Below are positions 4,356 through 8,802 of a DNA stretch of 64,000 nucleotides, piece by piece. This DNA comes from Drouetiella hepatica Uher 2000/2452 (GTDB lineage Bacteria; Cyanobacteriota; Cyanobacteriia; Elainellales; Elainellaceae). Both the position numbers and the translations under genes were made by a program. Under the pieces are notes generated by a model. The model worked only from the letters and a program-made list of their open reading frames with translations, ran no database searches and had not been told where the DNA came from. The DNA lies in contig JAHHHD010000007.1 in NCBI GenBank assembly GCA_019359505.1, positions 124,001 to 188,000 on the forward strand, read 5' to 3'. Every line of letters begins with the position of its first letter. Within the stretch, counting starts at the first letter, position 1.

Positions 4356-5180
4356 TTAGCCGAATCGACCGCTGACATAATCTTGGGTCGCCTGTTGCTT
4401 CGGCGCATTGAAGATGTTGTAGGTCTTGTCGTACTCCACCAAGTAGCCAAAGCGGCTACCGCCTTCGGTGGCTTCAGCGTTGAAGAAGGCCGTCATATCA
4501 GCTACCCGCGAAGCCTGCTGCATGTTGTGGGTCACGATGATGATGGTGAACTGCTTCTTCAGCTCATGCATCAGATCTTCGACGCGCAGGGTGGAAATGG
4601 GGTCAAGCGCCGAGCAAGGTTCGTCCATCAGAATCACTTCAGGCTCAATGGCGATCGTCCGAGCAATGCACAGACGCTGCTGCTGACCACCTGAGAGCGA
4701 CAGACCGCTTTCCTTCAGCTTGTCCTTAACTTCGTCCCAGAGGGCAGAACCTCGGAGCGATCGCTCAACCAGCTCGTCCATATTGCCCTTAAAGCCGTTG
4801 ATCCGCGCTCCAAACGCTACGTTCTCATAGATAGATTTGGGGAAAGGGTTCGCCTTTTGGAACACCATGCCAATCCGCCGCCGCACTTCTACGGGGTCAA
4901 TTTTGGGATCGTATAGGTCAACGCCCTGGTAGGCAATCTTGCCTTCTACTCTAGCGCCCGGAATCAAATCGTTGAGGCGGTTGTAGCAGCGCAGCAAGGT
5001 GCTTTTACCACAACCCGAAGGTCCAATCAGAGCCACCACGTTATTTTTGGGAACATCGAGGAAAACGTTCCGTACCGCCTGAAAAGCACCGTAGAAAATC
5101 GAGACATTTTCTGTCCGAATCACGATGTCGTTATTTTCCAAAGTATCGCTTGCAGAATTGGGCCGAGTTGAGGGATTCAT
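4356..5180 (-). CDS. pstB: Phosphate ABC transporter ATPase PstB
   Basis: ATP-hydrolysing subunit of the PstSCAB high-affinity phosphate importer, 274 residues. Walker A GPSGCGKS is at residues 53-60, the Q-loop is [11 protein letters not shown], the signature LSGGQQQRL is at 162-170, Walker B VILMDE is at 182-187, and the H-loop is in IIVTHNMQQ. The [10 protein letters not shown] segment is typical of PstB rather than of other importers. It is the last gene of the pst operon, 10 bp after pstA, and is followed by a bidirectional terminator. Confidence 0.97.
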
Positions 5181-5190
5181 ATGTCAAACC

Positions 5191-6072
5191 TTAGTAAACC
5201 TTGCGACGGGAAACGATTCTAGCCAGGATGCTGACCACCAAAATCAGAAGCACAACAATCAGAGCTGCGACCCAAGCCAAAGCCTGCTGATTCTTGTAGG
5301 GAGAAATTGCGAAGTTATAGATCAAAACCGACAGCGTAGCCGTTGGTTCCCAGATGCTTTTGGCATCGTACTGATTAAACAAGGCGGTAAACAGCAAAGG
5401 AGCCGTTTCTCCTGCCGCTCTCGCGAGAGCCAGCGTAACGCCTGTTGCAATAAACGGCATTGCTGCAGGCAAGATGATTTGCGTGACGCTCTGAAAGTTA
5501 GTGGCACCGATGCCAGTTGCCGCCAGTCGAGTATCCCTCGGAATCGACTTGAACCCTTCCTCGCTGGTGCGGATAATGATGGGCAGCATCAGCACCGATA
5601 GGGCAATGCCCCCCGCAACTGCCGAGAAGGTTCCAGTTGCCAGCACCACAATCCCGTAAGCAAACAGACCCGCAATGATGGAGGGTACGCCACTGAGAAT
5701 GTTGGTGCAAAAGCTGACAAACTGCGAGAGCTTGTTGCCGCGACCAAACTCAATAGTATAAACAGCAGTCAAAACGCCAAAGGGAACGCTAATCAGCGCC
5801 CCAATTAAACAAGTGATCAGGGTTCCTGTGATCGCATTCCTGAAGCCACCGCCTGCAACCCCTGCTGCCGGGGGTAGATCCGTGAAGACAGCAGGAGTCA
5901 ATCCCCCTAGCCCTTTAGTGATCACCATGAACAGAATAGAAACCAGGGGAATAGCCGCGATCGCCACACAAGAGAACACTAGGGCAGTCATGATGTTGCC
6001 AAACATCTTCCGACCCGAAGAGACAGCAAACTGATTATCCAAAGGAGCAGATTGAGAGGATGAATGAGCCAT
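5191..6072 (-). CDS. pstA: Phosphate ABC transporter permease PstA
   Basis: Inner-membrane permease, 293 residues, with about six membrane helices after a roughly 25-residue cytoplasmic tail. The permease-ATPase coupling loop carries the PstA-typical ALARAAGETAPLLFTALF near residues 215-235. It pairs with PstC to form the phosphate channel. The gene follows pstC after 108 bp, a wide gap for this operon in which I see no terminator. Confidence 0.96.
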   Translation of the reverse strand: MAHSSSQSAPLDNQFAVSSGRKMFGNIMTALVFSCVAIAAIPLVSILFMVITKGLGGLTPAVFTDLPPAAGVAGGGFRNAITGTLITCLIGALISVPFGVLTAVYTIEFGRGNKLSQFVSFCTNILSGVPSIIAGLFAYGIVVLATGTFSAVAGGIALSVLMLPIIIRTSEEGFKSIPRDTRLAATGIGATNFQSVTQIILPAAMPFIATGVTLALARAAGETAPLLFTALFNQYDAKSIWEPTATLSVLIYNFAISPYKNQQALAWVAALIVVLLILVVSILARIVSRRKVY

Positions 6073-6180: not shown

Positions 6181-7143
6181 CTACTCAACCTGCTGAAAGC
6201 GGCTGACTACCATTTGCGCCAGGATATTGACCAATAGCGTCAAAACCATCAGAATCAAGGCTCCGTAGAACAAAGAAGATTTCTGAAGACCGCTAGCTTC
6301 GCCAAACTGGTTGGCAATCAGTGAAGCAATGGTTGATGCTGGAGAAAACCAGGAAATATTTGCGTTATTGGCGTTGCCCACCAGCATGGCCAGCGCCATG
6401 GTTTCGCCCAATGCTCGCCCTAGTGCCAGCATGACTGATCCAATGATTCCAGACAGTCCAGCCGGAACCAAAACGCGGGTGATCGTTTCCCAACGAGTCG
6501 CGCCCAGCCCGTAGGAACCCTGACGGAGTTGGGGCGGCAAAGAACTCATAGTATCTCGTGAGATAGCCACAATCGTCGGCAGAATCATAATTGCCAGAAC
6601 CAACGATGCGCCAAACAGATGCCGACCACCTGGAGTGGTTGAGAAAAAGGGAATCCAGCCAAACGCTCGATTGATGCCCTGCAAGATTGGCCTGATGGCT
6701 GGCAGGAAAACGAAAATGCCCCACAAGCCGTAGACGACGCTAGGAATTGCCGCTAGCAGCTCCATGATGAAGGCGATCGGCGTCAGAATTTTGGGCGGCA
6801 GAAAGTTTTCAGTTAAGAAAACAGCTACGCCAACGCCTAGAGGCACAGCAAACAGCAGCGCCAGAAAAGAGCTAAGGATGGTGCCGTATATCTGAGGAAA
6901 TACACCGTAGATCTCTTCAACCGGATTCCAGGTACTGTTGGTCAGAAATCCCAGACCAAACGTGCGAATGGCGGGTAGAGCGATCAAAAGCAGCGAGTAG
7001 GTAATCCAAAGAAGAACTAAACCCACACAGACCGCCAGGGCGATCGTCAACCAGCGAAAAATCTGGTTAATCTGCCGCTCTGGCTGAAACTTAGTTGATG
7101 AATCTATGAGGGTTTCTGCTGGAGCCGTGGTCAGTGAGGTCAT
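6181..7143 (-). CDS. pstC: Phosphate ABC transporter permease PstC
   Basis: Second permease of the phosphate importer, 320 residues. A cytoplasmic N-terminus of about 30 residues is followed by six hydrophobic segments. The coupling motif ALGRALGETMALAMLVGN is diagnostic for PstC, and the large loop after the first helix fits PstC rather than PstA. It lies between the nucleotide-binding-domain gene (69 bp upstream) and pstA. Confidence 0.96.
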   Translation of the reverse strand: MTSLTTAPAETLIDSSTKFQPERQINQIFRWLTIALAVCVGLVLLWITYSLLLIALPAIRTFGLGFLTNSTWNPVEEIYGVFPQIYGTILSSFLALLFAVPLGVGVAVFLTENFLPPKILTPIAFIMELLAAIPSVVYGLWGIFVFLPAIRPILQGINRAFGWIPFFSTTPGGRHLFGASLVLAIMILPTIVAISRDTMSSLPPQLRQGSYGLGATRWETITRVLVPAGLSGIIGSVMLALGRALGETMALAMLVGNANNANISWFSPASTIASLIANQFGEASGLQKSSLFYGALILMVLTLLVNILAQMVVSRFQQVE

Positions 7144-7212: not shown

Positions 7213-7614
7213 CTAGGCTTTTCCACCTAGCGGGTGCTTGCTAAGGCGACGCAAGCGCTCAGAGTAGTTACGCATTACATCTAGGGCAAACATGGGCGTT
7301 TCCTGAATCGCAAATAGCATTCGAGACTCATCCATGTAAGCCAGCTTGCAATCTGTTTTGGCGATCGCGCTGTAGACTCGAATCCCTTCTGGGTGAATCA
7401 AAGCACCGGCACCAAACACACCGCCCATTTCGATAGTTTCGAGGACTTTACCATCAACAGCCAGATCAACAGCGCCCTCTAGAACGCCATAGAGATAGTC
7501 ACCCGGCTGTCCATCTTCAAAAATCACTTCACCCACCGAGAAAACTTTAGGCTCAGACTGCCGTTGAAAGATGGCGACTTTCCCCGCAGGACCTAAATTG
7601 AGTTGCTGCACCAT
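7213..7614 (-). CDS. Stand-alone cyclic-nucleotide-binding-like domain protein
   Basis: A 133-residue protein that is essentially one Crp/cNMP-binding beta-roll: FSVGEVIFEDGQPGDYLYGV, then FGAGALIHPEGIRVYSAIA at the phosphate-binding-cassette position, then a helical tail MRNYSERLRRL. There is no DNA-binding domain. The usual cassette Glu (FGE) is Ala here while the following Arg is kept, so cAMP binding may be lost or altered. It sits inside the pst operon between pstS and pstC in the same direction, which suggests a role in regulating the importer. That role is inferred; no function is known to me. Confidence 0.82.
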   Translation of the reverse strand: MVQQLNLGPAGKVAIFQRQSEPKVFSVGEVIFEDGQPGDYLYGVLEGAVDLAVDGKVLETIEMGGVFGAGALIHPEGIRVYSAIAKTDCKLAYMDESRMLFAIQETPMFALDVMRNYSERLRRLSKHPLGGKA

Positions 7615-7651: not shown

Positions 7652-7680
7652 TCATGGGGTGAGACTAGCTCACCCCATGA
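7652..7680 (-). terminator. Intercistronic hairpin after pstS
   Basis: Perfect 12-bp arms TCATGGGGTGAG (7652-7663) and CTCACCCCATGA (7669-7680) with a 5-nt loop, located between the pstS stop and the next gene. On the coding strand it lacks a strong U tract, so partial termination or 3'-end protection of pstS mRNA is more likely than full termination. Binding-protein genes in import operons often carry such a hairpin. Confidence 0.6.
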
Positions 7681-7698: not shown

Positions 7699-8802
7699 CT
7701 ACTTAACTTTGTCGAGTTCGGCGTTAACCTTTGTCACCAGAGATGCTTCTAAAGGAACATAGCCCAGCTCACTAGCCGTAGCTTTGCCAGTAGTCAAAGA
7801 CCAATCAATGACCTCCTTCAGAGCTGCGCTCTTGGCAGTGTCTTTGTACTCCGGATAGAGCAATAGCCAGGTTAGACCTGAGATGGGGTAAGCATTGGGG
7901 TTGCTAGAATCTGGAACTTCTAACGCCAGATCAGCAGGAACGGTTTCTCCCTCAAAGGCTGCTGCACCACCTTCAGGAGAAGGGGCAACTATCTTGCCCG
8001 ACTTGTTTTCGATCGCCGCCATCGTCAGACCATTTTCCTTGGCATAGGAATACTCGACGTAGCCGATTGCGCCAGGAGTTTGCTGAACTTGAGCCGTCAC
8101 GCCCTCGTTACCCTTCGCACCTGTACCCGCAGGCCACTGCACTGATTTGTTTGCACCCGCAGTCCAGTCGGGACAAGCTGCCTTCAGGTGAGAGGTGAAC
8201 TGATAGGTTGTGCCGCTGCCGTCTGAACGGTGAACAAACTCGATCGGCTGGTCGGGTATGGTGGCACCAGCATTGGCTTTGGCGATCGCCGGATCACTCC
8301 AGTTTGTGATCTTGCCTGCAGCAATACCGCAATAGGCTTCACGAGACAGCTTCAGATCTTTTACACCATCCAGGTTATAGGCAAACACAACGCTACCACC
8401 CGTCATCGGAATCTGGATAGGTTCTGCGCCATATTTTGCCTTAAACTTGGCGCGATCCTCAGCTTTCAAAGGAGCGTCCGTTGCGCCAAAGTCCACGGTA
8501 CCTGCTTGAAATTGCTCTACACCAGCACCACTACCCACAGATTGGTAGCTGATCTGAACGCCGGGATTTGCTTTGTTGTAATCAGCAAACCAACGCTGAT
8601 AAACAGGAGCGGGGAAGGATGCACCTGCACCGCTGAGAGTAGCGCTGCCGCCACCGCCACCAGCGGGCGAAGACATGGCATCGGTCGAAGGAGAAGTTGC
8701 TACATCAGGGCTAGAAGGAGCACAGGAGACAGCCAATCCCATCGAGAAAGCTGCCAGGGTTGTCAGAACAGTGCGTCGTCTGAGACGTGATTGTGAGGTC
8801 AT
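7699..8802 (-). CDS. pstS: Phosphate-binding protein PstS (lipoprotein)
   Basis: Periplasmic phosphate receptor of the importer, 367 residues. The N-terminus has RLRRR, a hydrophobic segment and the lipobox LAVSC with Cys27, so it should be lipid-anchored. A Ser/Gly/Pro-rich linker follows. The binding domain starts at SGAGASFPAPVYQRW and contains SVGSGAGVEQF, TDAPLK and HRSDGSGTTYQF, the phosphate-contact loops of PstS. It is the first gene of the operon and is followed by an intercistronic hairpin before the next gene. Confidence 0.96.
   Translation of the reverse strand: MTSQSRLRRRTVLTTLAAFSMGLAVSCAPSSPDVATSPSTDAMSSPAGGGGGSATLSGAGASFPAPVYQRWFADYNKANPGVQISYQSVGSGAGVEQFQAGTVDFGATDAPLKAEDRAKFKAKYGAEPIQIPMTGGSVVFAYNLDGVKDLKLSREAYCGIAAGKITNWSDPAIAKANAGATIPDQPIEFVHRSDGSGTTYQFTSHLKAACPDWTAGANKSVQWPAGTGAKGNEGVTAQVQQTPGAIGYVEYSYAKENGLTMAAIENKSGKIVAPSPEGGAAAFEGETVPADLALEVPDSSNPNAYPISGLTWLLLYPEYKDTAKSAALKEVIDWSLTTGKATASELGYVPLEASLVTKVNAELDKVK

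Follow-up and report, generated by a model that had tools for sequence, protein, structure and literature searches.

The pst operon of Drouetiella hepatica Uher 2000/2452 (Elainellaceae) contains, between the genes for the phosphate-binding protein and a permease, a gene for a stand-alone cNMP-binding (CNB) fold, which raises the question what such a protein may do beside a phosphate importer. The window, i.e. the whole stretch of DNA that was analysed, comprises 64,000 nucleotides (contig JAHHHD010000007.1, positions 124,001 to 188,000). A sequence-only reading had described the gene product as a Crp-like domain with an altered binding cassette and had proposed that it regulates phosphate import.

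A CNB gene within a complete pst operon

The operon is complete, with the order pstS-CNB-pstC-pstA-pstB and all genes on the minus strand. Spacers of 84 nt and 69 nt separate the CNB gene from pstS and pstC, respectively. The features are:

7699..8802, minus strand, pstS, phosphate-binding protein (TIGR00975, 346 bits, cut-off 205)
7652..7680, minus strand, strong hairpin with a 12-bp stem and a 5-nt loop, directly 3′ of the pstS stop and before the CNB gene (RNA fold)
7213..7614, minus strand, stand-alone CNB gene, 133 aa, no HTH (ATG start, ORF 7614-7213; Pfam and predicted fold)
7348..7425, minus strand, phosphate-binding-cassette region of the CNB gene, codons of residues 64-89, GGVFGAGALIHPEGIRVYSAIAKTDC (alignment and CAP superposition)
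6181..7143, minus strand, pstC, permease (TIGR02138, 309.6 bits, cut-off 196)
5191..6072, minus strand, pstA, permease (TIGR00974, 264 bits, cut-off 193)
4356..5180, minus strand, pstB, ATPase (TIGR00972, 385 bits, cut-off 343)

The four Pst assignments are based on NCBIfam equivalog models, all of which score above their cut-offs and confirm the neighbours assigned earlier, with the CNB gene between pstS and pstC on the same strand. The description of the protein as a 133-residue Crp-like domain without a DNA-binding part holds as well: PF00027 (cNMP_binding) is the sole Pfam match, covering residues 23-104 (54.2 bits against a cut-off of 27.5, E 1.5e-14), and the protein ends 29 residues after this match, leaving no room for an HTH domain. 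An AlphaFold model, built with 49 sequences, has a pLDDT of 86.6 and a pTM of 0.82. A Foldseek search with this model reveals GlxR as the top match, with mycobacterial CRP also among the first and the NtcA-2-oxoglutarate complex among the solved structures. Residues 5-129 of the model can be superimposed on residues 8-132 of E. coli CRP/CAP with a Z-score of ∼16 over 120 residues. The protein thus shares with the CNB domains of CRP/CAP and GlxR the fold and the cassette arginine; unlike these, it has a short C-helix, substitutions at Glu72 (Ala) and Ser83 (Val) and no HTH, and it is encoded with a transporter. Its score with the NCBIfam CRP model, 22.6, is far below the cut-off of 266.

These features bear directly on whether the protein could be a Crp/Fnr-type transcriptional regulator comparable to PtrA of marine Synechococcus. 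Two reports present PtrA as a CRP-family transcription regulator in the response to phosphate stress (PMC4415409, PMC11098088), and the input domain of the window protein has the same fold. However, no second domain follows this input domain, and the related small proteins described below are all short as well (about 120-165 aa). A role as DNA-binding regulator is rejected for a protein without HTH, and transcriptional control is highly improbable, being largely refuted unless a DNA-binding partner is involved.

PhoU is a soluble partner of Pst. The earlier statement that PhoU belongs to a different family than the CNB protein is correct, as PF01895 (PhoU) is not among the Pfam matches of the latter; a separate phoU gene lies on the same contig, at ∼100 kb from the pst operon.

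A hairpin is present at the same place after pstS in the other pst operons that were folded, irrespective of the presence of the CNB gene (L039, L040, L041, L044, L052, L075, L149, L151, L152, L155), and a scan of the minus strand from pstS to pstC yields no terminator-like sites. The hairpin probably stabilises the 3′ end of the pstS message, as is common for transcripts of binding-protein genes, and the CNB gene would therefore belong with the pstCAB part of the operon.

The binding cassette

CRP contacts the ribose 2′-OH of cAMP through Glu72 and the phosphate through Arg82 and Ser83. The corresponding residues in the CNB protein are Ala69, Arg79 and Val80, the CRP numbering for Ala69 and Arg79 being consistent with the CAP superposition. 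The alanine at the position where glutamate is expected, as pointed out in the sequence-only reading, is thus present. To place this substitution, 137 members of the small CNB family were compared (151 rows, of which 14 with identical ends were dropped). The cassette arginine is kept in 137 of 137 members. The glutamate is kept in 50 (1 of the 9 pst-linked copies and 49 of the 128 others) and is absent in the other 87. A reversed pattern is observed in 18 other cyanobacterial CNBs, where the glutamate is kept in 15 and the arginine in 13, although these controls are only those with a locus at hand and several are orthologous to each other. The invariant arginine and variable glutamate, as opposed to the reverse in other CNBs, imply that the anion-holding arginine matters to the small family and the ribose-holding glutamate does not.

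The absence of the residue for the ribose 2′-OH means that the ligand need not be cAMP. The earlier suggestion of a ligand other than cAMP, or none, is therefore a reasonable idea, but the substitution on which it was based is a trait of the whole protein family and not specific to the pst-linked copies. Since one pst-linked copy (L149, genome G009) keeps the glutamate, its loss is not required for a role at pst, and the notion that the alanine marks a pst-specific ligand is rejected.

A standard receptor domain for cAMP (or cGMP) that can do without the glutamate, with cAMP passing the carbon or light state of the cell to Pst, would agree with the close superposition on cAMP-bound CRP and with the invariant arginine. 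Moreover, the genome contains nine class III cyclase-domain matches; cyclic nucleotides are therefore likely made, and cAMP stays a possible ligand. Against such a receptor stand the missing glutamate in the majority of the family, the window protein included, and the valine at the Ser83 position. In addition, the positions of CRP Thr127 and Ser128 are occupied by Leu124 and Ser125 near the end of the short C-helix, according to the offset from the CAP superposition. Plain cAMP reception is thus distinctly unlikely.

NtcA, a relative with 2-oxoglutarate as ligand, provides a second point of comparison. Like NtcA, the window protein has the CRP fold with a replaced cassette glutamate, and a non-nucleotide ligand is possible; unlike the window protein, NtcA carries an HTH and regulates nitrogen genes. 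An NtcA-like CNB gene with valine at the glutamate position, which we take to be NtcA from its motif, lies ∼450 bp before the start of the window (L005, G000:C43:123285-123554). Many of these genomes also contain a second short stand-alone CNB family, with a canonical FGEM...PRSAS cassette and frames of ∼160-215 aa (L003, L029-L031, L033-L035, L038).

Distribution and descent of the gene at pst in Elainellaceae

Among 36 Elainellaceae genomes, orthologues of the CNB gene (E ≤ 1e-12) are found in nine and are absent from 27. Every one of the nine carriers has the gene within pst: eight have it between pstS and pstC, and one (G015) has it between pstC and pstA. A tenth genome (G032) retains only a decayed remnant at the pstS-pstC junction, with an N-terminal piece and a QETPMFA end in different frames, and 13 further pst operons examined in the family are without the gene. 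The absence from sister operons, together with the remnant, suggests that Pst works without the CNB protein, and since pst operons lose the gene and persist, the protein is to be regarded as an accessory.

In a tree of PstC, PstA and PstB, carriers and non-carriers are interleaved, requiring at least five state changes when the G032 remnant is counted as a carrier. The tree of the CNB gene agrees with this operon tree in showing the same subgroups. Free CNB trees need three to four changes, yet a topology with the nine pst-linked copies as one clade is not rejected (p-AU 0.565, in a tree of 84 sequences, obtained from the 137 rows by removing 53 that were long branches or thinned near-copies). 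It is thus unnecessary to assume that the link to pst arose several times, although this conclusion is weak, given that trees of ∼120 columns resolve poorly. The simplest account would be that the gene entered pst once, was then inherited vertically with the operon and was lost several times.

A chance ORF is rejected by the orthologues and by the dN/dS ratios of the CNB gene in three congeneric pairs (0.09, 0.13 and 0.08; 0.03-0.07 for PstC and PstA), which indicate purifying selection and therefore a real gene. The same data bear on whether the gene is a passenger that evolves neutrally or decays: a stray copy would have inserted into pst a single time, would contribute nothing to phosphate import and would be in the process of disappearing. 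The restriction to a quarter of the genomes, the remnant in G032 and the number of state changes on the operon tree would all fit such a fate. They are countered by the low dN/dS ratios, by the lack of internal stops in any of the nine pst-linked copies and by the retention of the gene over a wide divergence of the operon (67-95% PstC identity), which make a neutral passenger improbable.

A wider cyanobacterial family and its genomic neighbours

Members of the CNB protein family (E ≤ 1e-15) are found in 117 of 290 genomes of the class, and a scan of GTDB contigs yields 237 relatives, the best 80 of which all have cyanobacterial titles. Alignments of 21, 49 and 137 sequences define the family as short, CNB-only proteins with an FGxGAL-type cassette, the invariant arginine and a QETPxFA motif, a definition to which the window protein conforms. 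No description of the gene or its family was found in the open-access literature, to which the search extended, and the family is apparently unstudied; slr0593 is mentioned in one paper.

The genomic context of the family was derived from 159 loci, nine of which gave no CNB gene and stand outside all context counts (L136, L137, L141, L145, L210, L211, L215, L220, L221). PstS, PstC or PstA is encoded in the fetched stretch for six of the 112 distinct CNB genes flanked by 3.5 kb or more on each side, all six from Elainellaceae, and for none of the 106 copies from elsewhere. The conservation of gene order in other cyanobacteria, proposed earlier as a check, thus extends to every carrier in Elainellaceae and to none of these 106 copies outside. 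Recurrent same-strand neighbours are phosphoglucomutase (PGM), transaldolase (TAL), acetate kinase (AckA), phosphoketolase (XFP), glycogen phosphorylase (GlgP), pyruvate kinase (PK), phosphoglucose isomerase (PGI) and enolase. Of the same-strand genes that adjoin the CNB gene within 400 bp, 43 of 142 belong to these eight central-carbon kinds; at a distance of three or more places the figure is 4 of 670 genes. As the families were named after the neighbours had been seen and related genomes are not independent, the corresponding Fisher p-value of 7e-31 overstates the case. After removal of 14 loci repeating a contig, 36 of 136 distinct CNB genes have a central-carbon neighbour, i.e. a sizeable minority, most copies being without one; 9 of the 62 neighbour clusters were left without annotation. 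Transaldolase occurs on either side of the gene in distant groups (upstream in f2 and Arthrospira, downstream in Roseofilum and Baaleninema), acetate kinase occurs under four family codes and pyruvate kinase in two groups. Other neighbours, including Lin0512, PPIase, CpeS, LmeA, SRAP and glutamine synthetase, do not fit this central-carbon theme.

Some individual loci may be recorded separately. In Phormidesmis priestleyi a family member overlaps or almost touches an Ap4A phosphorylase gene (gaps of -4 and 20 bp; L055, L084). A decayed CNB remnant directly follows a gene with a histidine-phosphatase-like end (L137, 5189-5320, G050), and intact pairs of CNB and histidine-phosphatase-like genes occur in L140, L187 and L189. 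One locus (L025, G047) contains two tandem members, at 1501-1854 and 2053-2397, each ∼50% identical to the window protein.

The explanation that we tentatively prefer is that the CNB protein is a metabolite-sensing accessory of Pst. It would be a small soluble sensor consisting of the cNMP-binding fold alone, the pocket of which may bind, through Arg79, a ligand with a phosphate group, whether a metabolite or a nucleotide, either instead of cAMP or in addition to it. Once liganded, the protein would act, by protein-level control, on the products of its neighbouring genes, here presumably PstB or PstCA, and would adjust phosphate import to the phosphorylation or carbon status of the cell. The gene would have been recruited once to pst and then repeatedly lost. 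A sensor of this kind would agree with the position of other family members next to enzymes for phosphorylated sugars, acetyl phosphate or Pi. As the 106 copies outside Elainellaceae lie away from pst, any surface dedicated to contact with Pst would need to have arisen newly. An analogous arrangement is provided by SbtB, a small soluble adenyl-nucleotide sensor that is reported to be co-operonic with the transporter SbtA in sbtAB (PMC11257934). Like SbtB, the CNB protein is small, soluble and encoded with a nutrient transporter; unlike the CNB protein, SbtB is PII-like, and in the present case the transporter is an ABC system and the ligand is a putative one.

The main rival to this accessory role is that the protein has the same central-carbon or global target in all species and that the operon only sets the timing of its expression, here phosphate limitation if pst is Pho-controlled. 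The variation of the neighbours between lineages, Pst included, at constant fold and arginine points in this direction, as does the position inside pst, which is not fixed (L150). The neighbours are, however, far from random, which a mere expression platform would not need. A scan upstream of pstS in six operons, moreover, reveals a single Pho box in three and a weaker site in one more, but none in the window operon or in L075, from the carrier Pegethrix bostrychoides. We consider this alternative possible, though rather unlikely; the readings as cAMP receptor, as neutral passenger and as DNA-binding protein are each less probable still.

The proposed regulation of phosphate import is partly supported: the location inside pst in all Elainellaceae carriers, the purifying selection and the agreement of gene and operon trees are in its favour. 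A dedicated Pst regulator is spoken against by the genomes and pst operons without the gene, the G032 remnant, the copies elsewhere without pst and the sizeable minority beside sugar-metabolism genes. A role in import is possible, but to call the protein a 'regulator of phosphate import' is too narrow, given that its pst-linked form represents a local offshoot of a larger family whose context is one of carbon and phosphate metabolism. A broader reading, which we regard as doubtful, is that of a cyanobacteria-wide minimal CRP-fold family that has given up cyclic-nucleotide recognition, the glutamate having been lost many times and the arginine never, senses a phosphorylated-carbon or phosphate-state metabolite, and would have been placed, lineage by lineage, beside a sugar-phosphate, acetyl-phosphate or phosphate node that needs tuning, this node being the Pst importer in Elainellaceae.

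One annotated match, a Nostoc plasmid gene, is labelled 'Crp/Fnr family transcriptional regulator'; such labels on genes this short may mislead as to the ligand as well as the way in which the protein acts. The matching of phosphate import to carbon in cyanobacteria is largely credited to the Pho two-component system and PhoU. If the broader reading is true, Elainellaceae would possess a direct carbon-phosphate coupling outside these two systems, and the CNB family, located at pst in Elainellaceae and beside transaldolase, phosphoglucomutase, acetate kinase or enolase elsewhere, provides a concrete and easily purified candidate for carbon-phosphate coupling.
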